A DNA stretch of 64,000 bases, taken from NCBI GenBank assembly GCA_031261705.1, contig JAISJD010000006.1:1-64000 (forward strand), read 5' to 3'. Origin of the DNA: Lactobacillales bacterium. GTDB taxonomy: Bacteria; Bacillota; Bacilli; Lactobacillales; Streptococcaceae. Below, piece by piece: positions 41,647 through 53,296 of the stretch (position 1 is the first letter of the stretch; every line of letters begins with the position of its first letter). Below the pieces are notes generated by a model that was not told the DNA's origin, did no database searches, and saw nothing but the letters and a program-made list of their open reading frames with translations. The translations under genes and the position numbers were made by a program.

Positions 41647-41678
41647 AATACACGCACAAATTTCTCTGTGCGTGTATT
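41647..41678 (-). terminator. Terminator of the circular bacteriocin operon
   Basis: Perfect 12-bp arms (AATACACGCACA / TGTGCGTGTATT) with an eight-base loop, followed by ATTTTTACC on the minus strand. A near copy ends the lactococcin-type operon at 47586. Nothing else was seen between 41432 and 41753. Confidence 0.8.
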
Positions 41679-41753: not shown

Positions 41754-42452
41754 TTATTCAATTTCTTGTATAGATGAAAGCACAATATCTTCAAGATTAT
41801 TTATAGTATCACATTTTTCTATAATATTATCTTTAAAAAGATAAACATTATCAGCTAGCCTTTTACAAAAGTCCATATCGTGGCTTGTCACTATTAATAG
41901 TTTACCCAAATTTTTATAATCAATAATTTTTTTTCTTAAAAAATCCAATGTAAATACGTCTAAACCAAGTGAAGGTTCGTCTAAAACTAAAATATCTGAA
42001 TCAACTAAATCCATAATCGCTAAGTTCAGCCTTTGTGTCATACCCTTAGAATAATCTTTTACCCACTTATTTTTATATTTTTCCAGTTGATATTCATCTA
42101 GTAAATCTCTTATTCTATCTTTATTAATATGAAATAACTCTGAAAAATACACTAAATTTTCTTGTGCTGACAAATAATCAATTGCAATATTCTCAACTGG
42201 TAAAAAAAACATCGATTGCCTTACGCTTTTGGGATAAGGGATGGATAATGCTTTGCCATCTAATATTATTTCCCCAAAATCAGGAACTAAGAGCCCCGTT
42301 ATTAATTCCATCAACGTTGTTTTACCTACGCCATTTTTTCCAACAAAAAAATTTATTGTCCCTAATTTGAAGTCTAATGATACATTGTCAATAACCAAGC
42401 AGTTATCAAAAGATTTTGATATATTTTTAATTTCTAATGTTCGTTCACTCAC
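41754..42452 (-). CDS. ABC transporter ATPase of the circular bacteriocin operon
   Basis: 232 residues, GTG start. Walker A VGKNGVGKTTLMELI, signature YSKGMTQRLNLAI, Walker B DILVLDEPSLGLD, switch TSHDMDF. In circular bacteriocin clusters (AS-48, circularin A, carnocyclin A) the last core gene encodes such an ATPase; with a membrane partner it supports export and producer self-protection. It overlaps the preceding membrane-protein gene by eight bases. The cargo is inferred from operon context. No separate small immunity gene was found. Confidence 0.85.
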   Translation of the reverse strand: MSERTLEIKNISKSFDNCLVIDNVSLDFKLGTINFFVGKNGVGKTTLMELITGLLVPDFGEIILDGKALSIPYPKSVRQSMFFLPVENIAIDYLSAQENLVYFSELFHINKDRIRDLLDEYQLEKYKNKWVKDYSKGMTQRLNLAIMDLVDSDILVLDEPSLGLDVFTLDFLRKKIIDYKNLGKLLIVTSHDMDFCKRLADNVYLFKDNIIEKCDTINNLEDIVLSSIQEIE

Positions 42453-43023
42453 CTAATAACACACTCCCTATCATCAATATTTCATAAATACAAAATAAAA
42501 AAATGGGTAAAAATGCTTTGATTTTCTCAGTATATGGATACATCGCATAAAAAAACTTTATAACTCCAACTATAAGCGCTAATACTACCACAAAATTAGT
42601 TGAAATAAGTGTTAATTCCTTATGCGTTACAAACATAATTACTGATAAAATTGCATAATTAATTATACTTACGCAAAATAACCGATAAGCAACTTGCTCG
42701 TTTACTTTTTTATCAAGAATCGATTTATTTTTTTTACGAAATATATTTTCCACTCTTATAAGTAAAGAAAAAAAATGCTTTATTAGAAAAATTGTAACCA
42801 CTGCATTTATAGTTCTAAAACTAAATTGAATAAAAAAATTATTAAATGTAGATTTGATTGCTTCAAAAGTTTTTATAGTATCTGTTCCAGATATATTAAG
42901 AGAAGTATCAATTAACTGTGACATAACTGTTGTAGAATGCGTATAAGCTATACTATAAATAGCCAGTGATAAAAATAAAAATAAATAAAAATACTTACTG
43001 TTAATATTTTTTGTAAATTTCAT
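42445..43023 (-). CDS. Small membrane protein of the circular bacteriocin operon
   Basis: 192 residues with five or six hydrophobic segments and a basic cytosolic loop (RVENIFRKKNKSILDKKV). Position between the SpoIIM-family gene and the ATPase suggests it is the membrane partner of that ATPase, and possibly the immunity determinant. No named family recognised. GAGGAGGG before the ATG. Very AT-rich. Confidence 0.65.
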   Translation of the reverse strand: MKFTKNINSKYFYLFLFLSLAIYSIAYTHSTTVMSQLIDTSLNISGTDTIKTFEAIKSTFNNFFIQFSFRTINAVVTIFLIKHFFSLLIRVENIFRKKNKSILDKKVNEQVAYRLFCVSIINYAILSVIMFVTHKELTLISTNFVVVLALIVGVIKFFYAMYPYTEKIKAFLPIFLFCIYEILMIGSVLLGE

Positions 43024-43039
43024 ACCGATTTTCCCTCCT

Positions 43040-43549
43040 CTACAAATTCATAGAAACTGTTCCCTCAATAAATGCAGCAATAAAATTAAGAATCCCTGTT
43101 ATAACCATGATTTCTACACCTTGAAAAATAAAATCTTTCCAACGAAAATTAGAATTTTTTTTCACTAACTGGTACAATAAAAGAAAACCAAAGGCACTTG
43201 CCAAAAAAATAGATGGAATTTCTACTATCCCATGTGGAAGTATTTTTAGGAGCATATTTTTTATTCCAAACTCATCGGCATAAAAATGAATACTTGCTCC
43301 AAATATAAAAAAATTATAAATAAGTAAAGCAATATCAATTAATCCGAGAGAAAAAACTCCTATAATGATAAGAAGTGAAACTTTTTCATTATTTAAAAAA
43401 ATATCTAGCACAGAATAGTTAGGTTTCTGAGCATCGATAGAAAAAGTTGATGAAAATCCCCACCCTATATAAAACGCAATTCCGCCTATAATTATAGAAA
43501 TAATACCGCAGATAAATAATTCTTTTTTAAACAATTTTTGAATATTCAC
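43040..43549 (-). CDS. SpoIIM/DUF95 membrane protein of the circular bacteriocin operon
   Basis: 169 residues, GTG start, about five helices. LLKILPHGIVEIPSIFLASAFGF and the late ITGILNFIAAFIEG are the hallmarks of the SpoIIM (DUF95) family. A DUF95 protein is a constant member of AS-48-like gene clusters (As-48C, CirC, CclC) and is thought to take part in maturation, secretion and immunity. Overlaps the upstream gene by 23 bases. Strong support for the cluster assignment. Confidence 0.82.
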   Translation of the reverse strand: MNIQKLFKKELFICGIISIIIGGIAFYIGWGFSSTFSIDAQKPNYSVLDIFLNNEKVSLLIIIGVFSLGLIDIALLIYNFFIFGASIHFYADEFGIKNMLLKILPHGIVEIPSIFLASAFGFLLLYQLVKKNSNFRWKDFIFQGVEIMVITGILNFIAAFIEGTVSMNL

Positions 43550-45029
43550 CGTAAAATCCTCTTACCTTTCTTTTGAAAATATAATGGTGTAAAACTATTG
43601 AGACAGTAAGCATAAACACTAAAGAAAATACGCCTAAAAAATTGGTATGAAATATTTCACCCAAAAATAAGCAAAAAAGGAGCATATATTCTGTCAGCGA
43701 AGATACAATAACAAACATTACGGAACTAACTATCGATACTCCCATTAGGTCATTCAAAAATTTACCTTTGTAATTTGTATAATAAACATTCGTTATACAA
43801 ATATGTAAAAGTAGTATACCTGAGATAAAAAGTGCTCCTATAAATGTTAAAAAATTACATAACCCAGTTAAAAATAAAACTAAAATAATAATAAATGACA
43901 AAACTATATTTAATGTAAATAGGCTTATTATTTTATTTCTGAGAAGGTACATCATAGGATATTTAGATTGTATATAATTTAAAATAGTATTTTGTTCTTC
44001 AGATAGTGTGAAAGAGGAAACCTTAGTAAAATTGGTAAAATAAAATGTACTAACAATTAATAATACAGATAAAAGAGAAATATTTTTTAATGCAATATGT
44101 TGAATTTTACAATTAAGAAAGACTAATAATAAAGAAAATAAAAAAATCACGCCATTCACTGTTATTTTCTTTATGATTTCAGCATTCTCCATTAATTGTA
44201 TTTCTTTTTTCAATAAGGGATTGATTTTATGATTCTTTATTATAAAATGAGTTCCTATTTTAATACTTTTATCTATCCATAGTTCTTCTCTTTTATTTTT
44301 TATATTGTATTTATTCATCGAACATAAAAACACGTATAACAAACTTAGCAAAGTGTAGCCAATAATCACAAGTATTAGAAAAGAGCCCGAAAATTTCGTA
44401 AGCGTCTTTGCGATTAGCCACTTGTTGCTTTGAGTAATCTTTCTTATTACCCGTTCTATTATTTGAAAATCTTGTGTTAAAAAAATAAATAACAGAACTG
44501 ACTGGATAAATATCTGAATAAATTTCAATAAATAATCAATAGAATTTATTCGACTGAAAACTAATTTGAATAGGCTGGCTATTTTTCTATTCATCAAAAA
44601 AGAAAAACATGACAAAATAAAAATAAATAATATATATAAATGAGATTTACTTATCATAAGGAATGGAATAACTACAAACAGTAGACAGAAAGCATATTCA
44701 GCACCTGATAACACCTCGTATTTTATGGATTTAAAAAGCAGCAATTGTTGTTTTCTGTAAGGCAGCAATACTAAAAATTTATTCTTATCACTTTTCAAAT
44801 ATTTTTCAAATCTAAAATCTGATAAAAAGAAACCAACTACAGAAAAAACAAAAATAGAATTTATTACAGTTATTTCATAATTTTCAATAAATGTTTTAAA
44901 AAATATCATGCCTGTATAAATTAGAAAAATAAAACAAAAACCAATAAACGCACCTAAGTATTGATTGCTATCTGTATCAAAATATTGTCTTTTCAATGCA
45001 ATAAGTTCATATTTCATTGCTTTCAGCAT
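43527..45029 (-). CDS. Large membrane protein of the circular bacteriocin operon (CirB-like position)
   Basis: 500 residues, about 12-13 hydrophobic segments with short basic loops and no enzymatic motif. In known circular bacteriocin operons the gene after the precursor encodes a large membrane protein required for production, and this one has the same place and size. It could be the cyclase or translocase, whose identity is unsettled in the family. It has its own promoter with a conserved 15-bp element, separate from the precursor gene. SD AAGGAG twelve bases before the ATG. Confidence 0.7.
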   Translation of the reverse strand: MLKAMKYELIALKRQYFDTDSNQYLGAFIGFCFIFLIYTGMIFFKTFIENYEITVINSIFVFSVVGFFLSDFRFEKYLKSDKNKFLVLLPYRKQQLLLFKSIKYEVLSGAEYAFCLLFVVIPFLMISKSHLYILFIFILSCFSFLMNRKIASLFKLVFSRINSIDYLLKFIQIFIQSVLLFIFLTQDFQIIERVIRKITQSNKWLIAKTLTKFSGSFLILVIIGYTLLSLLYVFLCSMNKYNIKNKREELWIDKSIKIGTHFIIKNHKINPLLKKEIQLMENAEIIKKITVNGVIFLFSLLLVFLNCKIQHIALKNISLLSVLLIVSTFYFTNFTKVSSFTLSEEQNTILNYIQSKYPMMYLLRNKIISLFTLNIVLSFIIILVLFLTGLCNFLTFIGALFISGILLLHICITNVYYTNYKGKFLNDLMGVSIVSSVMFVIVSSLTEYMLLFCLFLGEIFHTNFLGVFSLVFMLTVSIVLHHYIFKRKVRGFYGEYSKIV

Positions 45030-45049
45030 ATATTTATTTTCACTCCTTA

Positions 45050-45082
45050 CTATTAGATTGATTTTTACAAAAAATGAATGAG
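45050..45082 (-). promoter_or_regulatory. Conserved-element promoter of the bacteriocin biosynthesis genes
   Basis: On the minus strand CTCATTCATTTTTTG (45068-45082) is followed after exactly 12 bases by TAATAG (45050-45055) as -10. The same arrangement occurs at 45751-45783 and 46609-46641. There is no good -35, as expected for an activator-dependent promoter. Confidence 0.6.
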
Positions 45083-45108
45083 ATTTTTAACATCTTAAAA
45101 ATGTTACT

Positions 45109-45141
45109 GGTTAGATAATCTTGCGGGTTATTTTTTTATAA
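45109..45141 (+). repeat. Right-facing copy of a 33-base inverted repeat flanking the bacteriocin gene
   Basis: GGTTAGATAATCTT-CGGGTTA followed by a T-run. It matches the minus-strand sequence at 45529-45561 with two mismatches over 33 bases. In the minus-strand transcript the two copies could pair across the whole precursor gene. Confidence 0.7.
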
Positions 45142-45204
45142 ATACGATTAAATACTTAAACTTAACAAATTGTGTCAGTTAAATTGCATAAAAATTATTT
45201 CGAA

Positions 45205-45450
45205 TTACCAAGCACAAAATGCTTTTTTTCCACCTTTAAATTTATTTAAAATATATACTCCACCTAACCCAACAATAGCAGCAATTACAATAGCTCCCAC
45301 TCCTGTAACCGCACAAGTAGCAATTGCCTGAACAACTCCTATCGCTCCTTTACTCGCCGCTCTAGCAACAATAGCATAAATTGCCGCTGCCGCTGCTGTT
45401 GAAATTCCAAATGTTCCAGTTAACAAGAATAATTTCATCAATTTTTTCAT
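45205..45450 (-). CDS. Circular bacteriocin precursor (class I, AS-48/enterocin NKR-5-3B type)
   Basis: 81 residues from the ATG ten bases after AAGGAG; an ATG three codons earlier is too close to the SD. A short leader MKKLMKLFL precedes a probable mature chain of 72 residues starting LTGTFGISTAAAAAIY and ending KGGKKAFCAW. It is highly hydrophobic, Ala/Gly/Val-rich, with a basic C-terminal helix. The start resembles enterocin NKR-5-3B (LTANLGISSYAAK) and the aromatic C-terminus matches the head-to-tail Leu-Trp junction of that family. Two Cys (mature 37 and 70) are unusual. Operon partners agree. Expected product: a cyclised membrane-permeabilising peptide. Confidence 0.85.
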   Translation of the reverse strand: MKKLMKLFLLTGTFGISTAAAAAIYAIVARAASKGAIGVVQAIATCAVTGVGAIVIAAIVGLGGVYILNKFKGGKKAFCAW

Positions 45451-45528
45451 TTTTATCATTCTCCTTATAATAAATTAATTTTTTTAATATATTCATTTGT
45501 TATACATCGTTCCACCATAAAAATAACC

Positions 45529-45561
45529 TTACAAAAAAATAACCCGAAAGATTATCTAACC
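45529..45561 (-). repeat. Left-facing copy of the 33-base inverted repeat, terminator-like
   Basis: Read on the minus strand, ATAATC-TTTC-GGTTAT forms a small hairpin followed by T7, which could partly end the transcript of the 26-codon gene upstream before it reaches the bacteriocin gene. Partner copy at 45109-45141. Confidence 0.6.
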
Positions 45562-45576
45562 AAAAAAGCACTTTAC

Positions 45577-45657
45577 TTAATAAGTAGTGATGTAAATAAA
45601 CTCTTCTTCCTCCACCACCAAACCACACCCTCCAAAGAACCAATGAATTATTGACAA
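45577..45657 (-). CDS. 26-residue peptide upstream of the bacteriocin gene
   Basis: TTG start with AGGAGG at the ideal eight-base distance; reads MSIIHWFFGGCGLVVEEEEF and stops just before a terminator-like hairpin. The unit thus has a promoter, SD, short gene and hairpin. A longer frame (45500-45694, 64 residues, beginning MEVENYVLGGGLIVNN) overlaps it, begins upstream of the SD and runs through the hairpin. Both readings are possible: the short one by start signal, the long one by a protein-level match of its first ten residues to the peptide at 46502. Function unknown; candidate pheromone, leader or second bacteriocin. Confidence 0.4.
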   Translation of the reverse strand: MSIIHWFFGGCGLVVEEEEFIYITTY

Positions 45658-45703
45658 TTAAACCACCTCCTAATACATAATTTTCAACTTCCATCGACCC
45701 AAA

Positions 45704-45720
45704 AATTGATTAAATCAATT
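45704..45720. promoter_or_regulatory. 17-bp palindrome, copy 1
   Basis: AATTGATTAAATCAATT, a perfect palindrome about 30 bases downstream of the -10 box at 45751. Identical to 46562-46578, with its 13-bp core also at 50911-50923. Likely operator. Confidence 0.5.
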
Positions 45721-45750
45721 AACTACATAGTTACTTACCCTTCTTTACTT

Positions 45751-45783
45751 TTTATAAGAATAATGTAACAAAAAATGAATGAG
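45751..45783 (-). promoter_or_regulatory. Conserved-element promoter of the 26-codon gene
   Basis: CTCATTCATTTTTTG (45769-45783), 12 bases, then TATAAA (45751-45756) on the minus strand. Read-through of the downstream hairpin would also transcribe the bacteriocin gene, which has no other visible promoter. Confidence 0.65.
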
Positions 45784-45854
45784 ATTTAGAAAATGTAAAC
45801 AAAATTCACATTTTAAATAAGAAGTACGGACAGAATTGCTTGTATCTCTTGTTT

Positions 45855-46035
45855 TTTATGACGTTCATCTTTTTTCAACAGATTTTTTAAATGCTTCATC
45901 CTAGTAATTTCCACTCTGAACAATTTCCCCGTTATCGACAATAATAATTTCATCACTTTGTGCAAAGATTTCTTCATTAAAACAAAATATAGTATTCTTG
46001 TCTATTGTATTTGCATAATTCTTATTAAATCAACG
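45855..46035 (-). pseudogene. C-terminal fragment of an ABC transporter ATPase
   Basis: Minus-strand translation gives NTIFCFNEEIFAQSDEIIIV followed by DNGEIVQSGNY, a stop, then DEAFKKSVEK. The IIIVDNGEIVQSG stretch is the D-loop/H-loop-distal end of ABC exporter ATPases of the bacteriocin-export type. No Walker A or signature motif remains upstream. It appears to be the tail of a deleted exporter gene. Confidence 0.55.
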
Positions 46036-46184: not shown

Positions 46185-46415
46185 GACTAACCATTAACAG
46201 CGAGTCTGACAGAGAATTATAATTTGAATTGTTCATATTGTTATCAAAATAGTTTTTTCAAAAAATCTATATCTTTTGAACCGCTCGATAATATAATTTC
46301 TTATATTGAATCTGTATTATTGCACGATGAAACGAAACGCTTAGTCGATATTTTTTTTGGGTGGAGAACCTACGCTTTATAGAAATAAAACTTTATTTTT
46401 ATTATAATTAGCAAA
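46185..46415 (+). pseudogene. Remnant of a radical-SAM peptide-maturation enzyme
   Basis: Plus-strand translation PLTASLTENYNLNCSYCYQN contains the end of a radical-SAM CxxxCxxC motif with the first Cys changed to Tyr (codon TAT). After about 35 further codons a one-base shift restores FFGGEPTLYRNKT, the GGEP motif of SAM binding. No start, the first cysteine lost, a frameshift and an early stop: clearly inactive. Such enzymes modify ribosomal peptides (sactipeptides, streptide-like). Beside an Rgg regulator this recalls the Rgg-linked radical-SAM peptide loci of streptococci. Confidence 0.6.
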
Positions 46416-46501: not shown

Positions 46502-46552
46502 TCAAATTAATTTTCTATCACATCCTCCCAATACATAGTTTCCAACTTCCAT
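46502..46552 (-). CDS. Candidate 16-residue peptide divergent from the Rgg-type gene
   Basis: Frame MEVGNYVLGGCDRKLI on the minus strand. Its first ten codons match those at 45694 (MEVENYVLGG) with three synonymous and one amino-acid change, a pattern suggesting coding. The ...NYVLGG segment recalls the Gly-Gly ending of SHP pheromones that pair with Rgg proteins, but here the frame continues past the GG. No clear SD precedes the ATG. The alternative is that the similarity reflects a conserved SD region (GGGAGG) of the repeat. Confidence 0.3.
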   Translation of the reverse strand: MEVGNYVLGGCDRKLI

Positions 46553-46561
46553 TGAACCAAA

Positions 46562-46578
46562 AATTGATTAAATCAATT
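46562..46578. promoter_or_regulatory. 17-bp palindrome, copy 2
   Basis: AATTGATTAAATCAATT, identical to the copy at 45704. Lies between the divergent peptide frame and its -10 box, about 110 bases upstream of the regulator gene. Confidence 0.5.
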
Positions 46579-46608
46579 ACTACATAGTTACTTACCCCTC
46601 ATTTACTT

Positions 46609-46641
46609 TTTATAAGAGTAATGTAGCAAAAAATGAATGAG
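46609..46641 (-). promoter_or_regulatory. Conserved-element promoter divergent from the Rgg-type gene
   Basis: CTCATTCATTTTTTG (46627-46641), 12 bases, TATAAA-type -10 (46609-46614) on the minus strand. Same layout as the promoters at 45050 and 45751. Confidence 0.6.
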
Positions 46642-46690
46642 ATTTTGAAAATGTAAACAAAATTCACACTTTCTATTGGAGGAATATATA

Positions 46691-47554
46691 ATGGAGTATA
46701 ATATTGAAAAATTCGGAGAAAAATTTAAGGAAATTAGACAAAACAAACATTTATCACAAAAAGAAGTTTGTGGAAAGGAGATTTCAAGAACTACCTTATC
46801 AAAATTTGAAAATGGAGGTCGTTCTATGAATATTCATCATTTTCTCCGACTGCTAGAAAGAATTGACATGTCTTTTGATGAATTTAGTTACATTTGTTCT
46901 GATTACACTCTTAAACCTAAAAAGCAAATTGTTGCGGATTTTTTATCCCTCTATTCAAATTATGATATTCAAAGTATCACAAAACTGATTAAGGATTCAG
47001 AAAACTATCTTGCAATTAGCGATAATTGGTATGTAAAAGCAATTTTGGAGGTTTCACATGCCTATCTCCAAGATCAAAAAGATACCCCTGATTTAATCAA
47101 TGCTACTGCAACAAAAATTATTCCAATGGTATGGGAGGAATTATCTAAACAAGATGAGTGGTATCTGCTAGATTTAAGATTATTAAATGCTATCTTATAT
47201 TCTTTCCCTATTGAAACTACTGGTCAGATTGCTAAAGAAGTTAAAAAAAGAATTGGGAAATATCAAAATTTCACGCAAGTTTTACCATTGATAACTGCGC
47301 TTTATTTGAATCTTTCTCTTCTTTATTTACAAAATAATAAGAGTGAAAAAGCCGAAAATATTCTATCCGAAGCCAAAAACTTAGCTTATCAACTAAAAAG
47401 AACAGATTTCCTAGCCGTTGCCCTAGTCCGCCACGGTATCGCCACCAAAAACAAACAAGAAATGGAACAAGGAGTTTTGCTTTCGACTTTCCTTCAAGAT
47501 AAAAACTTACAAAAAGAATTACAAGAGGAAGTTGAAAATTTGAGTATCGCTTAA
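46691..47554 (+). CDS. Rgg/GadR/MutR-family transcriptional regulator
   Basis: 287 residues from the ATG after GGAGGAATATATA; a TTG five codons earlier overlaps the SD. N-terminal XRE helix-turn-helix (FKEIRQNKHLSQKEVCGKEI and SRTTLSKFENGGRSM) joined to a C-terminal all-helical TPR-like domain of ~210 residues, the layout of Rgg proteins, which bind short peptides. The only regulator in the bacteriocin island; likely controls the three matching promoters. A deleted copy of its gene and promoter lies at 50895-51141. Confidence 0.85.
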   Translation: MEYNIEKFGEKFKEIRQNKHLSQKEVCGKEISRTTLSKFENGGRSMNIHHFLRLLERIDMSFDEFSYICSDYTLKPKKQIVADFLSLYSNYDIQSITKLIKDSENYLAISDNWYVKAILEVSHAYLQDQKDTPDLINATATKIIPMVWEELSKQDEWYLLDLRLLNAILYSFPIETTGQIAKEVKKRIGKYQNFTQVLPLITALYLNLSLLYLQNNKSEKAENILSEAKNLAYQLKRTDFLAVALVRHGIATKNKQEMEQGVLLSTFLQDKNLQKELQEEVENLSIA

Positions 47555-47585: not shown

Positions 47586-47620
47586 AAAACACGCACAATT
47601 TTCTCTCTGTACGTGTTTTA
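47586..47620. terminator. Shared bidirectional terminator
   Basis: AAAACACGCACA / TGTACGTGTTTT arms with one mismatch, between the converging regulator gene (plus) and exporter operon (minus). A- and T-runs on both sides suit both directions. Near-identical to the terminator at 41647. Confidence 0.7.
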
Positions 47621-47624
47621 CTAT

Positions 47625-48233
47625 TTAAAGTGTCGTTACATCAATGATTTGATTTACTCGCTGATACACATTTGGATCATGAGTAGCAAAAATTACCGTA
47701 GTTTCCGAAGAAACAAGACTTAGTAGCAAGGAGATAATCGTTTCTCCTGTTTCTTCATCTAGCGCACCAGTTGGCTCATCTGCTAAGATAACTTTAGGAT
47801 TCTTGAGTAAGATTCTAGCGATAGCCACTCGCTGTGCTTGTCCACCAGATAATTCGTAAATTTTCGCTTTTAAATAACTTTCGTCCAAACCAACTCGGGC
47901 TAACGCTTCACGTATTTGTTTGCCACTTCCCACAAGTTTTAAGTTTTGTTCAACCGTTTGCTCATCAATCAGTGCATAGTTTTGAAAAACATAACCTAAA
48001 TAATTTTTAAAATATTCAGCTTCCTTCATTTTTGACCAAATATCCCGTCCATTATATAAAATCTCCCCAGAGCTAGGCTTTTCAAGGCGAGCGATAGCAT
48101 TTAGCAAGGTTGTCTTTCCAGAACCGGAAGGACCAATTAATGCGTAGGAAGTCCCTGTTTGAAAGTTTAAATTCACCTTATCAAAAACAGTCTTCCCTCC
48201 GTATTGTTTACATAAATTTTTTAATTCTATCAT
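47625..48233 (-). CDS. Lactococcin-972-type bacteriocin export ABC ATPase
   Basis: 202 residues: Walker A IGPSGSGKTTLLNAIA, Q-loop VFQNYALI, signature LSGGQAQRVAIARIL, Walker B VILADEPTGALDE, switch FATHDP. This compact MacB/LolD-like form is the usual partner of the bacteriocin-associated membrane protein in lactococcin 972 clusters. Overlaps the membrane-protein gene by four bases. Provides energy for export or immunity. Confidence 0.88.
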   Translation of the reverse strand: MIELKNLCKQYGGKTVFDKVNLNFQTGTSYALIGPSGSGKTTLLNAIARLEKPSSGEILYNGRDIWSKMKEAEYFKNYLGYVFQNYALIDEQTVEQNLKLVGSGKQIREALARVGLDESYLKAKIYELSGGQAQRVAIARILLKNPKVILADEPTGALDEETGETIISLLLSLVSSETTVIFATHDPNVYQRVNQIIDVTTL

Positions 48234-50248
48234 AAAAATTCAAAATCTCCCTTCAAAATTTGTACTCTTTTCTCTTTCACCCGCCACAGTGCAAGGAAAA
48301 CTAACGCAACGATTTCGATAAGATACATTAGACAAACAATAAAAATAGCAAATATATTTTTTGTTTCCGCATAGGCAAAGCCACTCGCAAAAAAAATTCC
48401 AACAATCAAAAAAGCTAACATTTTCATTATTTCAACGGCAACAGGTTTTCCGAAAAAGCTTTTAATCGCCAGTTGTTTCGCCCTATTTTTAATTTGCAAA
48501 ATAATATATTGATAAAGGACAAAGAGTTGAGCAAAAACAAGGGCAACTAAAGCAATAATTGTTCCCGTAAGCTGACTTTTCACTTTATTTCGTTTAAGCA
48601 GAACGTCTTGACTTGCATTTGTCAATGAAGAAAAGGTACTTTCTAACTCTGCATTTTTTATATTTTGAGGAATCTTCGTTTGATTAAACAAAGAATCAAA
48701 AGAAATATTACTATAATCTAAATTCAACGTTTCATCGTCACTTGGGAAATTTTCAAAATTCAATTGAACCAAAATAGCATCTTTTTTCATTTGCTCGGCG
48801 AGTAATTCTGTTTCTCCCTCCACATCTCGAAAAAGAAAAGTCACTTGTCCGTCTGGAATGGGAACTATTTCAAACTGTTCAGAGGAAACAGACGAATGTT
48901 GAAACCATTCAAACATCAAGATATTTTTGATTTTATCCGTAGATGAAAGAAATTTTTCTGGGATATAAATGGTAACGGGTAATGCGTTATTCCCGTTCCC
49001 ATACTGATTTTTAGGATAAAGCTGTTTATTCTTCTCGACCATTCCTTGATTTACATAAAAAATATTCTGTGCCACTTTTATGTCGACCCCTGCTTTATCG
49101 AGATCCTCTTTGAATCTTGGATTTTCTAGCACATGTGAATCGCCAAGGTCAGATTTTTGTGAATAAATCATCTCTTCTTCTTTGAATGATAAGACAAACT
49201 CTTTATTTTTCTGTGCCTGCCGTTTCATTGACCCTGCATCAATCTGATGGTTTTCATCTGTATATTCTTCTTCTGCAGAGAACCATGTGATTCGTGCAAA
49301 GTTACTAGCGACTGCCCATTTTTCTAAAACACCTATTTGTTTCGTCAATTCTTGAGAAACCTGTGTCATCTTACTTGCGGTTATTCCAAAAATAAAGACA
49401 GAAATCAAAATACCAAAAAGCCAAACATATGAAATAAGTCCCTGCGATTTTTTATTTTTCAACACTTTTAAAGGTGCCGTTAAACGAATATTAAGAGCAA
49501 ATAATCCATTTGCAACCAGAGAAACCCAGAGAAGAGAAAGTGCGATAACACTCATTAACAATGCAAATGATTTAACAAATACACTATCAATAGAGCGCTG
49601 CCAAAGTGAAAAGAGACCGATAACAAGAAACAGCTCGATTAAAATGATGCCAACATCTGAAAAGGTTGCTTTCCACATTGCTTTCCGAAAAATCCCTAAA
49701 CTTCGTTGAATCATCGCTTTTTTCACGTACATCATTTTCACTGCGAATAATAAAACCGCAAAAACGAAAAGAAGCGTCCAAACCGCTAGGGAACGAATAT
49801 TCCCAACAAAAAAATCAATTGGTGTTAGCCACCAGCCTATATCGCCTGCTTTATACTGAAAACCTAAAACTTCAAGTTTATTTTTCAGATTTTTTGAGAT
49901 AGATTTACTACTGTAATACATCCCCGTTATTGTTGTGTCACTAAGTAAATTTTTATCTGCTGAATAGTTTTTATTTTTTAGATAAGGAGCCGCTTCTCCG
50001 AAAACATATACTTTTTCCTGTCCCTTTTCTTGCAAGATAGGCTTAAATAAAACGAGATTATTTTCCTTTGAAAGTTCATCAAGCTGAGCATAGATTTGCT
50101 CTTTTGGTAAATTCCCTTCGTACCTTGTTAAATTTACTCCTGCCTGTGCGGGATAGTTTATATCGTTCCCAAATTCTTTGATTTCTCCCAAAGCCAATAA
50201 AGAAAATAAAAGAAGAACAAAGCTTAAAACAGTGATACGCCACTTCAT
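48230..50248 (-). CDS. Bacteriocin-associated integral membrane protein (lactococcin 972 group)
   Basis: 672 residues: an N-terminal helix, ~140 extracytoplasmic residues, a cluster of four or five helices (~155-300), a second long external domain (~310-545), and three C-terminal helices (TGTIIALVALVFAQLFVLYQ onward). Size and layout match the DUF1430-type protein found after lactococcin 972-like genes. It forms an FtsX-like permease with the downstream ATPase, acting in export and/or producer protection. Strong TTTGGAGG SD. Confidence 0.85.
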   Translation of the reverse strand: MKWRITVLSFVLLLFSLLALGEIKEFGNDINYPAQAGVNLTRYEGNLPKEQIYAQLDELSKENNLVLFKPILQEKGQEKVYVFGEAAPYLKNKNYSADKNLLSDTTITGMYYSSKSISKNLKNKLEVLGFQYKAGDIGWWLTPIDFFVGNIRSLAVWTLLFVFAVLLFAVKMMYVKKAMIQRSLGIFRKAMWKATFSDVGIILIELFLVIGLFSLWQRSIDSVFVKSFALLMSVIALSLLWVSLVANGLFALNIRLTAPLKVLKNKKSQGLISYVWLFGILISVFIFGITASKMTQVSQELTKQIGVLEKWAVASNFARITWFSAEEEYTDENHQIDAGSMKRQAQKNKEFVLSFKEEEMIYSQKSDLGDSHVLENPRFKEDLDKAGVDIKVAQNIFYVNQGMVEKNKQLYPKNQYGNGNNALPVTIYIPEKFLSSTDKIKNILMFEWFQHSSVSSEQFEIVPIPDGQVTFLFRDVEGETELLAEQMKKDAILVQLNFENFPSDDETLNLDYSNISFDSLFNQTKIPQNIKNAELESTFSSLTNASQDVLLKRNKVKSQLTGTIIALVALVFAQLFVLYQYIILQIKNRAKQLAIKSFFGKPVAVEIMKMLAFLIVGIFFASGFAYAETKNIFAIFIVCLMYLIEIVALVFLALWRVKEKRVQILKGDFEFL

Positions 50249-50269
50249 AAGTTTCCTCCAAATAGATGC

Positions 50270-50291
50270 GGTCTTGAAAATTCAAGACCGG
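50270..50291 (-). other. Perfect hairpin between bacteriocin and exporter genes
   Basis: 10-bp arms CGGTCTTGAA / TTCAAGACCG with a two-base centre, between the bacteriocin stop codon and the exporter SD, with no T-run. Likely lowers exporter expression relative to bacteriocin or protects the bacteriocin mRNA 3' end. Confidence 0.6.
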
Positions 50292-50319
50292 TCTGGTTTT
50301 ATATTTTTTTAATCATAAC

Positions 50320-50655
50320 TTAAAAATTGTACCAACCATAATAACAATTCGCACGAACCCATGAAATTGTTTTCTTTGCACCAGATTTAGCCCAACCATA
50401 ATCTTGTTTGTCAAAATCTTTCACCTTTCCAAATATATCTGTCACTGAAGATGAACTTCCAAGGCGAATAGGCGCTTCCAAATAATAATCGGAATAAGCC
50501 CAATTATCACTAGTCACTCCATAATTCCAATTATCCAAATAAGTTGGGTGGGGATGCTCAGTTGTTGCACTTGCCATTATTGTAGGGACGATAAAACTAA
50601 CGAGTAGTCCTGTTGTTAGAAATCCTTTAGAAATTGAATTTTTAAACTTTTTCAT
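50320..50655 (-). CDS. Lactococcin-972-family bacteriocin precursor
   Basis: 111 residues. Sec signal peptide (MKKFKNSISKGFLTTGLLVS, then FIVPTIMASA), mature part of ~80 residues. It has the family pattern: Trp/Tyr/Gly-rich start (WNYGVTSDNWAYSDYY), basic centre, and the C-terminal CYYGWYNF, comparable to the FYYNFW end of lactococcin 972. Two mature-region residues stand out: a single Cys and an AKSGAKKT loop. Lactococcin 972 itself acts on septum formation through lipid II in lactococci. GAGGAG SD. Followed by its exporter genes. Confidence 0.85.
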   Translation of the reverse strand: MKKFKNSISKGFLTTGLLVSFIVPTIMASATTEHPHPTYLDNWNYGVTSDNWAYSDYYLEAPIRLGSSSSVTDIFGKVKDFDKQDYGWAKSGAKKTISWVRANCYYGWYNF

Positions 50656-50726
50656 TGAAAATCTCCTCTTCTCTTTTCATCCATTTTCCCACAGTGAAAT
50701 GATATTTCCGAAAGATTCCTTATTTT

Positions 50727-50763
50727 TTAATAAATTTGTTAAAGTGTTAAACAAATTTATTAA
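50727..50763. promoter_or_regulatory. 14-bp inverted repeat upstream of the lactococcin-type gene
   Basis: TTAATAAATTTGTT / AACAAATTTATTAA with a nine-base spacer, about 75 bases before the bacteriocin start. Operator or leader hairpin. Different from the palindrome of the circular bacteriocin region, so control may be separate. The remaining spacer to 50895 shows no gene. Confidence 0.55.
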
Positions 50764-50894
50764 TAGAATCTCAATATTCCCCTCTCCTTACCACATATAA
50801 TACAGGCTCAATTTTAATTCCATGTAAATATTAAATTAAGATTTTGTATAGTAGACGCTTTCTTTTACAGCTAAGCAAAAACACCACAATTTTT

Positions 50895-51141
50895 TCCGTT
50901 GAACCAAAAATTGATTAAATCAAGGAATCACATAGTTACTTACCTCATTTACTTTTTGTAAGAGTAATGTAAACAAAATTCACACTTTCTATTGGAGGAA
51001 TATAGAATGGAGTATAATATTGAAAAATTCGGAGAAAAATTTAAGGAAATTAGACAAAACAAACATCTTACATAAAAAGAAGTTTGTGGAAAGGAGATTT
51101 CAAGAGCTACTTTATCAAAATTTCACGCAAGTTTTACCATT
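50895..51141 (+). repeat. Second copy of the regulator's promoter and 5' end
   Basis: From CCGTTGAACCAAAAATTG onward this repeats the 46553-46810 region, including the TTGATTAAATCAA palindrome and the GGAGGAATATAG SD. The CTCATTCATTTTTTG element has been deleted between two ATGTA words. Together with the intact copy it brackets the lactococcin-type operon as a direct repeat. Confidence 0.75.
51007..51141 (+). pseudogene. Deleted copy of the Rgg-type regulator gene
   Basis: Starts MEYNIEKFGEKFKEIRQNKH like the intact protein, then a stop codon (TAA) at codon 23. After TLSKF the sequence jumps to the region of codon ~191 of the intact gene, removing 463 bases. The junction is an 11-base sequence (TATCAAAATTT) found at both deletion ends in the intact copy (46798 and 47261). 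No functional product. Confidence 0.85.
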
Positions 51142-51349
51142 CGTTTTATTCTATTTACGAAAAATAATTCTATTTTAATGATAAACCGATTAAATGTTTC
51201 TAAACAATTAGTATTAAATTACACATACTTTAAAAACACGTCGAACTTCCACACCAAGTCGTTTACTTTCAGAGAGCTTAACTTTATAATTAAAGTTGAT
51301 ATGTTTTGCACAAAGCAAGCAGCTCAAATAAACGAAAAGGGGATACACT
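51142..51349 (+). other. Spacer before the NADH dehydrogenase gene
   Basis: AT-rich, ending with AAAAGGGG before the ndh start. No gene, no clear -35/-10 pair of consensus quality. Confidence 0.4.
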
Positions 51350-53296
51350 ATGAGTAAGCAACGAATTGTGGTCATTGGGGCTGGTTTTTCAGGATTATCC
51401 GCAACGAAATATTTGTCGAAAAAGTTGAAGCAAGACGCGGAAATTACACTGATTGATAGACACAGCTATCATACCATGATGACACAACTTCATGAGGTAG
51501 CGGCTGGACGTGTAGAGCCAGATGCGATCCAATTTGATTTACAGCACTTATTAGCTCGTCAAAAAAATGTTTCTATCGTGACAGATTCTGTGACGGAGAT
51601 TGATAAAGTAGGCAAAGTCGTAAAAACAACACAAGCCACTTATGAATTTGACTATTTAGTCATCGCTATGGGAGGGGAACCCAATGACTTTGGTGTGCCG
51701 GGCGTAAAAGAAAACGGCTTCACACTCTGGTCTTTTGAAGATGCGATGAAAATCCGTCGTCACATTGACCAAACCGTTGAAAAAGCGGCAGTGGAACCTG
51801 ATGATGCGAAACGCAAGGCGATGTTAACCTTTGCCGTGGCTGGTTCTGGATTTACAGGGATTGAAATGGTCGGAGAACTGATTGATTGGAAGCCGATTGT
51901 TGCGAAGAAATACAAGATTGATCCTAGTGAAATCACGATTGCTGTCGTTGAAATGATGCCAACCATTCTGAACATGCTTGATCGTGTAGATGCAGACAAA
52001 GCCTTGAAATACTTGAAGAAAAAAGACGTTCAAGTACTTACAGGTCATGCAATTACCGCAGTTGAAAGCGACCACATCAAGATTAAGGATGGCTCAGATG
52101 TTCCAACACACACTCTCATCTGGACTACCGGAGTGCAAGGAAACACGAAAGCCAAAGAGTTTGGCATTGAAGAAGCTCGTGGCAATCGCCTCGTGGCAAA
52201 TGAATTTATGGAAGCAAAGGGCTACGAAGATAAAAATATCTATGTGGTCGGAGATTTGGTGAACTTTGTTGAACCTAGCACTGGTCGACCTACACCGCAA
52301 ATCGTCCAAGCTGCTGAAGCAACCGGACACACGGCTGCCAAAAATATTGTCGCAAACATTAAAGGAACGGAAAAAGTTACTTATAAAGGCAATTATTCTG
52401 GATTTATGGTTTCTATTGGTTCAAAATGGGGTGTTGCTTCATTAATGAACACCTTCCACTTGAGTGGGTTCTTAGCAATGGTGATGAAACATTTGATTTA
52501 CATTATGTATATCGTGTTACTTCCGTCTGCTTATTACTTGTTCCACTATCTGATGAATGAATTTTTCCATACAAAGAATGATCGGAATATCGGTCGTGGA
52601 CATTTATCACGTATGGGCAATGTTTTATGGGCAGTCCCACTACGTATCTTCTACGGCTTGGTTTGGTTGGTGGAAGCCAGTCATAAAATTGTCGGAAATG
52701 GGGATTACTTGAAACCGTCTACATGGTTTGGCGAAGGCTCTTGGTTTACTGATCACGTGAACTTCCCATTTGCTTGGTTACAAGAAACAGCTGCAACTAC
52801 AGGTGCAAGTGCTTCTGAAAAAGCAGCGGAAGCGACAAGTGCTGCCAGTGGTGCCGCTAGTTCTGGAGCTGATGCGGCAGAAGCTGTTCACTCTGTCTTT
52901 GGTTTAAGCTATGCTTATGGAGAACAACCCATGGCAGTCTTTGACACTATGCCAAAATTCTTGGAACCTGTCATGAAATTCATGATTCCAAACAAGGAAG
53001 TCGCTTTATTCTTACAAAAATTCATGTCTATTGTTGAAATTTTAATTGCGCTTGCTTTAATCGTTGGTGCCTTCACCTTCATCGCAAGTGGCGCAACAGC
53101 CGGTTTAACTGTCATGTTCTCATTAAGCGGCATGTTCTACTGGGTCAACATCTGGTTCATCTTTGTAGCAATCGCTTTAATGAATGGTTCTGGGCGTGCC
53201 TTTGGTCTTGACCGCTGGATTCAACCTTGGTTACAAAAACACTTGGGTCACTGGCGATACGGAACCTCGCATGCTAGGTATGGAGTGAAAAAATAA
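51350..53296 (+). CDS. ndh: Type II NADH dehydrogenase with C-terminal membrane extension
   Basis: 648 residues. FAD-binding GAGFSGLSATKYL at 7-19, second dinucleotide fold with AGSGFTGIEMVGEL near 165, and VVGDLVNF near 300 as in NDH-2. Ordinary NDH-2 ends near 400; here a C-terminal part with about five membrane helices (DoxX-like) follows, interrupted by an Ala/Ser-rich linker (ATTGASASEKAAEATSAASG) near 482. It oxidises NADH and passes electrons to quinone, without proton pumping. Such long forms occur in lactobacilli and enterococci. Monocistronic, good AAAAGGGG SD. Confidence 0.92.
   Translation: MSKQRIVVIGAGFSGLSATKYLSKKLKQDAEITLIDRHSYHTMMTQLHEVAAGRVEPDAIQFDLQHLLARQKNVSIVTDSVTEIDKVGKVVKTTQATYEFDYLVIAMGGEPNDFGVPGVKENGFTLWSFEDAMKIRRHIDQTVEKAAVEPDDAKRKAMLTFAVAGSGFTGIEMVGELIDWKPIVAKKYKIDPSEITIAVVEMMPTILNMLDRVDADKALKYLKKKDVQVLTGHAITAVESDHIKIKDGSDVPTHTLIWTTGVQGNTKAKEFGIEEARGNRLVANEFMEAKGYEDKNIYVVGDLVNFVEPSTGRPTPQIVQAAEATGHTAAKNIVANIKGTEKVTYKGNYSGFMVSIGSKWGVASLMNTFHLSGFLAMVMKHLIYIMYIVLLPSAYYLFHYLMNEFFHTKNDRNIGRGHLSRMGNVLWAVPLRIFYGLVWLVEASHKIVGNGDYLKPSTWFGEGSWFTDHVNFPFAWLQETAATTGASASEKAAEATSAASGAASSGADAAEAVHSVFGLSYAYGEQPMAVFDTMPKFLEPVMKFMIPNKEVALFLQKFMSIVEILIALALIVGAFTFIASGATAGLTVMFSLSGMFYWVNIWFIFVAIALMNGSGRAFGLDRWIQPWLQKHLGHWRYGTSHARYGVKK

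Follow-up and report, generated by a model that had tools for sequence, protein, structure and literature searches.

Introduction

Lactococcin 972 (Lactococcus lactis plasmid pBL1; PDB 2LGN) is an unmodified bacteriocin with a beta-sandwich structure, and its target at the septum is lipid II (PMC9964109). The orf2-orf3 pair of its locus is treated as a set of immunity genes (PMC4055356), although no lactococcin 972 locus has had the function of genes B and C verified by experiment (PMC11796350). The streptococcins A-E of pneumococci and their relatives have the gene order A-B-C (PMC6120550, PMC11796350). In pneumococci, bacteriocin clusters switch beside conserved Rgg regulators (PMC6120550), and 27.5% of genomes keep scbBC without scbA (PMC11796350). 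Transporters of the BceAB type appear to free the target from the peptide, a mode of action known as target protection (PMC7038271).

Here, we analyze an operon from a Streptococcaceae assembly, within a stretch of 64,000 nucleotides that we call the window (contig JAISJD010000006.1). We find that it is a real, intact, and well-conserved operon. Both the kind of system and its gene order are familiar, as is its probable logic, but the branch to which it belongs is not.

Results

An intact three-gene operon

The operon lies at approximately 47586-50655 on the minus strand, and all three of its genes are intact. The features discussed below are as follows.

50320-50655, minus strand: predicted bacteriocin precursor, 111 aa (ORF, relatives, profile link to canonical precursors, AlphaFold2 model, mass)
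48230-50248, minus strand: large membrane protein, 672 aa (TIGR01654 below cut-off; AlphaFold2 and Foldseek)
47625-48233, minus strand: ABC ATPase, 202 aa (TIGR03608 below cut-off; invariant motifs; PDB kin)
50269-50290, minus strand: attenuator-like hairpin between the precursor and membrane-protein genes (9 bp stem, 5 G-C)
47586-47619, minus strand: terminator-like hairpin closing the operon (sequence common to the end of the circular-bacteriocin operon, 41647-41678)
50727-50763, no strand: inverted repeat, possibly an operator or promoter element (two perfect 14-bp arms around a 9-nt spacer)
46691-47554, plus strand: intact rgg-type transcriptional regulator, convergent with the operon (PF21259 Rgg_C, HTH_3)
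50894-51145, plus strand: relic of an rgg gene head, divergent from the precursor (sequence comparison)
45666-45814, plus strand: another copy (the third) of the sequence upstream of rgg, divergent from the operon of the circular bacteriocin

Each of the three genes is preceded by a plausible ribosome-binding site, and the membrane-protein and ATPase genes overlap by 4 bases. The start regions, inter-gene hairpin, and terminator are intact alongside the genes, and the ORFs of the operon include no modification gene. The inverted repeat at 50727-50763 is situated ~72 bp upstream of the precursor start; as a control, we simulated regions with a Markov model, and 0.04% of them contained a perfect repeat of 13 bp. 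We rejected it as a conserved operator, because it was not found upstream of the relatives.

Judged by sequence, this three-gene unit is more than a chance arrangement, since searches of related genomes returned precursor relatives with E values down to 1e-31, and the membrane protein and ATPase follow the precursor in the same order at every complete related locus examined. The first-pass annotation had described a full cluster of precursor, "DUF1430-type" membrane protein, and ATPase, back to back with circular-bacteriocin genes. The cluster stands, both by its ORFs and by the same gene trio at the relatives, and the "DUF1430-type" label is a tentative one, with scores below the cut-offs. 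The back-to-back arrangement is rejected on orientation: Both operons are on the minus strand, in tandem and ~2.1 kb apart, with the plus-strand rgg-type gene and gene relics between them.

A sister branch of the lactococcin 972 group

All three proteins point to the lactococcin 972 group by sequence, and all three fall short of the curated cut-offs. The precursor scores 14.4 bits on Pfam PF09683 (cut-off, 22), a model that gave no match at E 1 to any of the nine other aligned precursor relatives. The membrane protein shows remote homology to TIGR01654, the bacteriocin-associated integral membrane protein (60.7 bits over residues 105-667; cut-off, 189.35), which matches 7 of 10 aligned membrane-protein members at 1e-3; on PF07242 it reaches 17.6 bits (cut-off, 28.2). 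For the ATPase, the best family is TIGR03608 L_ocin_972_ABC, at 235.2 bits (cut-off, 254.85).

Profile comparisons show that the two types of precursor, new and canonical, are remotely homologous. Aligning their profiles with hhalign gave 97.4% probability (E 9.5e-12) over 62 columns across the mature region. A mature-region profile gave 13.5 bits for lactococcin 972 itself and up to 16.4 for several canonical precursors, against 10.9 bits for the best of 1,400 shuffled sequences. The two types are nevertheless well separated on the new-type profile (66-147 bits for new-type precursors versus at most 18.8 for canonical ones). Membrane proteins divide likewise on a new-type profile: those of new-type loci reach hundreds of bits (fewer for short end pieces), and no canonical one exceeds 53.5. 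Furthermore, a maximum likelihood tree built from N-terminal parts of 36 membrane proteins splits the 18 partners of new-type precursors from the 18 partners of canonical precursors by one branch (SH-aLRT, 97), although its long branches call for caution.

The sequence motifs follow the same division. A GG-x-W-x-Y-G start and an H-x4-H pair are invariant in 12 aligned canonical precursors. New-type precursors keep W-x-Y-G and the YS-x-Y pattern, lack the GG and both histidines, and carry an N-terminal P-x-P...D-x-W stretch ahead of W-x-Y-G. That the precursor differs from lactococcin 972, as the first-pass annotation had it, agrees with an identity of ~25-32% to canonical precursors (gapped multiple alignment). 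The close identity to a described member that it had named as counterevidence was found neither there nor in a PDB sequence search with the precursor profile, which gave no match. Its assignment to the lactococcin 972 type was right as to the kind of system, but the locus falls in a distinct sister branch below curated cut-offs.

Overall, the locus resembles that of lactococcin 972 in being a three-gene operon with a large membrane protein and an ATPase, in its secreted unmodified protein (here predicted), which is all-beta (here in a model), and in its W-x-Y-G and YS-x-Y motifs. It differs in scoring below the PF09683 cut-off, in lacking the His pair and the GG before the first Trp, in its extra N-terminal P-x-P...D stretch, and in a permease that falls in a separate clade.

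Distribution among Streptococcaceae

Among the genomes searched, and as far as sequence profiles can tell, the branch appears only in Streptococcaceae. The named relatives are two "Lactobacillales bacterium" MAGs, one "Streptococcaceae bacterium" MAG, and Pilibacter termitis. When 395 genomes of the order were searched by profile, eleven strong matches emerged besides the source genome, all from one genus of the family, which we take to be Streptococcus; in 398 genomes of the phylum, nothing was found beyond the source genome, which has one copy of this precursor type. A protein search of a plasmid collection with the precursor, the membrane protein, and one streptococcal relative gave no match, and no relative was found on viral contigs. 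Of 295 genomes from the family, 84 have a PF09683 match above the cut-off, and these matches fall outside the strong new-type loci. The Pilibacter termitis locus (L017, 9065-9837) has two tandem new-type precursors before a single membrane protein and ATPase, and both carry a Cys at positions other than that of C104, the cysteine of the precursor studied here.

The predicted mature protein

At its N terminus, the precursor has a lysine-rich stretch, a hydrophobic core, and the sequence ASA|TT. Read by eye, we propose a Sec-type signal at residues 1-30 with cleavage at ASA|TTEHPHP, which would leave a mature form of 81 aa (about 9.45 kDa; pI 6.0). The single Cys noted earlier in the C-terminal part is confirmed as exactly one residue, C104. 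It is a substitution at a variable position where no aligned relative has a Cys; we rejected it as a special feature, because relatives carry other residues there.

An AlphaFold2 model, based on an alignment of 16 new-type precursors with no canonical sequence, is confident and all-beta, with seven strands from residue 29 on and block-mean pLDDT values of 90-96 from residue 31 on. Foldseek gave no match to this model at E <= 0.001, and 2LGN, the lactococcin 972 structure (identified by sequence), was absent from the 50 best matches. The fold link to lactococcin 972 is therefore unproven.

A genomic island with repeated regulatory sequences

The operon sits in an island with a G+C content of 25.7-35%, compared with 37-43% in the flanks. 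The intact rgg gene scores 29.8 bits on PF21259 Rgg_C (cut-off, 27) and 29.7 bits on HTH_3 (cut-off, 23). Its upstream region occurs in three copies in the genome, all within the island: before the circular-bacteriocin operon (45666-45814), before the intact gene (46524-47554, including the gene), and as a relic before the lactococcin-972-like operon (50894-51145). The palindrome TTGATTAAATCAA is present in them. The relic comprises the upstream region, the start, an early stop, and an internal deletion. An rgg gene lies beside a minority of the relatives only, and we therefore rejected it as an obligatory part of the system.

The two bacteriocin operons also share their ends. The hairpins at 41647-41678 and 47586-47619 are near-identical and terminator-like, and the motif ACACGCACAANTTTCTCT has exact matches in the genome only at the ends of these two operons. 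Such repeated ends would allow cassette exchange by recombination, which may have occurred here.

Several other sequences accompany the operon. The divergent circular-type bacteriocin operon (41754-45459, minus strand) encodes an 84-aa peptide ending in KKAFCAW, a SpoIIM-type protein, and an ABC ATPase. This peptide has no family match; its 47% relative (L078, 1329-1571) matches the full TIGR03651 circularin/uberolysin model at 16.5 bits, below the cut-off. This relative is followed by a similar large membrane protein and preceded by a regulator. A radical-SAM peptide maturase survives at 46218-46390 (plus strand) as a frameshifted relic, whose joined pieces score 26.6 bits on PF04055 with PapB-like as the best match and whose sequence suggests the remains of a third, modified-peptide cluster. 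Small minus-strand ORFs at 45500-45694 and around 46552, divergent from the rgg copies, start with MEVENYVLGGG and MEVGNYVLGGC, respectively. They are possibly precursor or signal peptides of this lost cluster; the first has no family match. The minus-strand stretch 45830-46000, reading FNEEIFAQSDEIIIVDNGEIVQSGNY, is interrupted by stops; it resembles the C-terminal region of an ABC ATPase and has no Pfam match. On the other side, a 648-aa protein (51350-53296, plus strand) is NADH-dehydrogenase-like in its N-terminal half, where Pyr_redox_2 extends to about residue 326; its C-terminal half is long, resembles a membrane protein, and has no Pfam match.

Because the rgg copy beside the promoter is a relic, the operon might be a decaying, silent locus. 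That relic, with its early stop and deletion, lies directly upstream, radical-SAM and ABC relics are nearby, and the island is full of relics. However, the operon itself retains its three genes, their start regions, the inter-gene hairpin, and the terminator, an intact rgg copy stands at its other end, and most relatives have no rgg neighbor at all. We consider silent decay unlikely.

A type VII-like permease and its ATPase

The membrane-protein model (AlphaFold2; mean pLDDT, 81.5) suggests a MacB/FtsX-type permease with two extracellular domains, which we propose as the immunity subunit. The best Foldseek matches were YbbP (E 6.5e-6), BceAB-S (E 3.7e-3), and LolCDE (E 5.8e-3), with MacB and FtsX further down the list. 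The TM-scores were low, as can be expected for multi-domain permeases in different arrangements, and the best matches agree on one superfamily. In the ATPase, the Walker A, signature, and Walker B motifs are intact, and the closest single-domain PDB kin include MacB, LolD, FtsE, and PsdA. The pair thus resembles type VII ABC systems (BceAB/YbbAP/LolCDE/MacB) in both permease fold class and ATPase class. It differs from them in having no linked two-component system or other partner, and its function is one that we infer.

Broken precursors bear on this function. Of 11 streptococcal loci, five have a broken precursor (a late stop in one, frameshifts in three, and a fragment in the fifth), yet all 11 encode a full-length membrane protein (about 662 residues) and a full-length ATPase (208). 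Between two loci with the same broken precursor, dN/dS in the membrane gene is about 0.17, a figure that strain recombination could blur. With intact partners beside broken precursors, the two genes therefore behave as immunity genes would, and the pattern matches that of pneumococcal strains with scbBC only (PMC11796350). The modeled fold class of the permease likewise supports a target-protection or immunity role.

The same observations bear on whether the ABC complex could instead be the bacteriocin exporter, with immunity coming from elsewhere. TIGR03608 is named "putative bacteriocin export ABC transporter," and the two genes are always linked to the precursor. Against this, a Sec-type signal can be read by eye in the precursor, an exporter with a peptidase is absent, and the permease falls in the fold class of MacB, BceB, and LolCDE; moreover, an exporter would not be expected to stay intact where the precursor is broken. 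An export role is quite improbable on this evidence. It is very unlikely that the precursor serves as a secreted signal or as a surface protein and not as a bacteriocin: Activity is known for no member of the branch, but the homology to lactococcin 972, the linked immunity-type complex, the location in a bacteriocin island, and the repeated loss of the precursor alone all speak against it.

Discussion

We interpret the locus as an intact bacteriocin operon from a branch that is a divergent sister to lactococcin 972; its product would be secreted without modification, and immunity would be ABC-mediated. We put the probability of this explanation as a whole at about 0.74. The precursor would leave the cell by the Sec route and be cut after residue 30 (ASA), and the mature protein would fold into a small all-beta structure acting on the cell wall of close relatives. 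By analogy with lactococcin 972, which binds lipid II and blocks septum formation, its target would most likely be lipid II or a precursor related to it. Together, the membrane protein and ATPase would make up a type VII (MacB/BceAB-like) ABC complex whose role is not export; rather, it would strip the bacteriocin from its target on the producer surface and so confer immunity. Expression is probably under quorum-type control by the rgg gene or a former neighboring copy, and the inter-gene hairpin may set the ratio of bacteriocin to immunity genes.

The branch is so far unnamed, as are its streptococcal members. We set it beside streptococcins A-E by their published descriptions. It is like them in its gene order, in the Rgg/ComR-type regulators nearby with possible cluster switching beside rgg, and in loci that have lost gene A but retain B and C (PMC6120550, PMC11796350).

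The target could differ, because the His pair that is invariant in the sampled canonical precursors is absent. Recognition of a cell-wall target other than that of lactococcin 972 is a doubtful but arguable extension of our preferred reading, given the loss of the His pair and glycine motif, the gain of the N-terminal P-x-P...D-x-W stretch, and a type VII permease clade of its own. Such a pattern would be expected if the bacteriocin and its immunity pump had co-evolved on a new ligand.

Our findings indicate that curated models miss this branch, so that genome mining undercounts the lactococcin-972-type systems of Streptococcaceae. Loci with broken precursors and intact partners provide an evolutionary argument for the unproven immunity role of genes B and C. 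In addition, the sequence pattern of the branch offers a natural test of which residues bind the target in the lactococcin 972 group.
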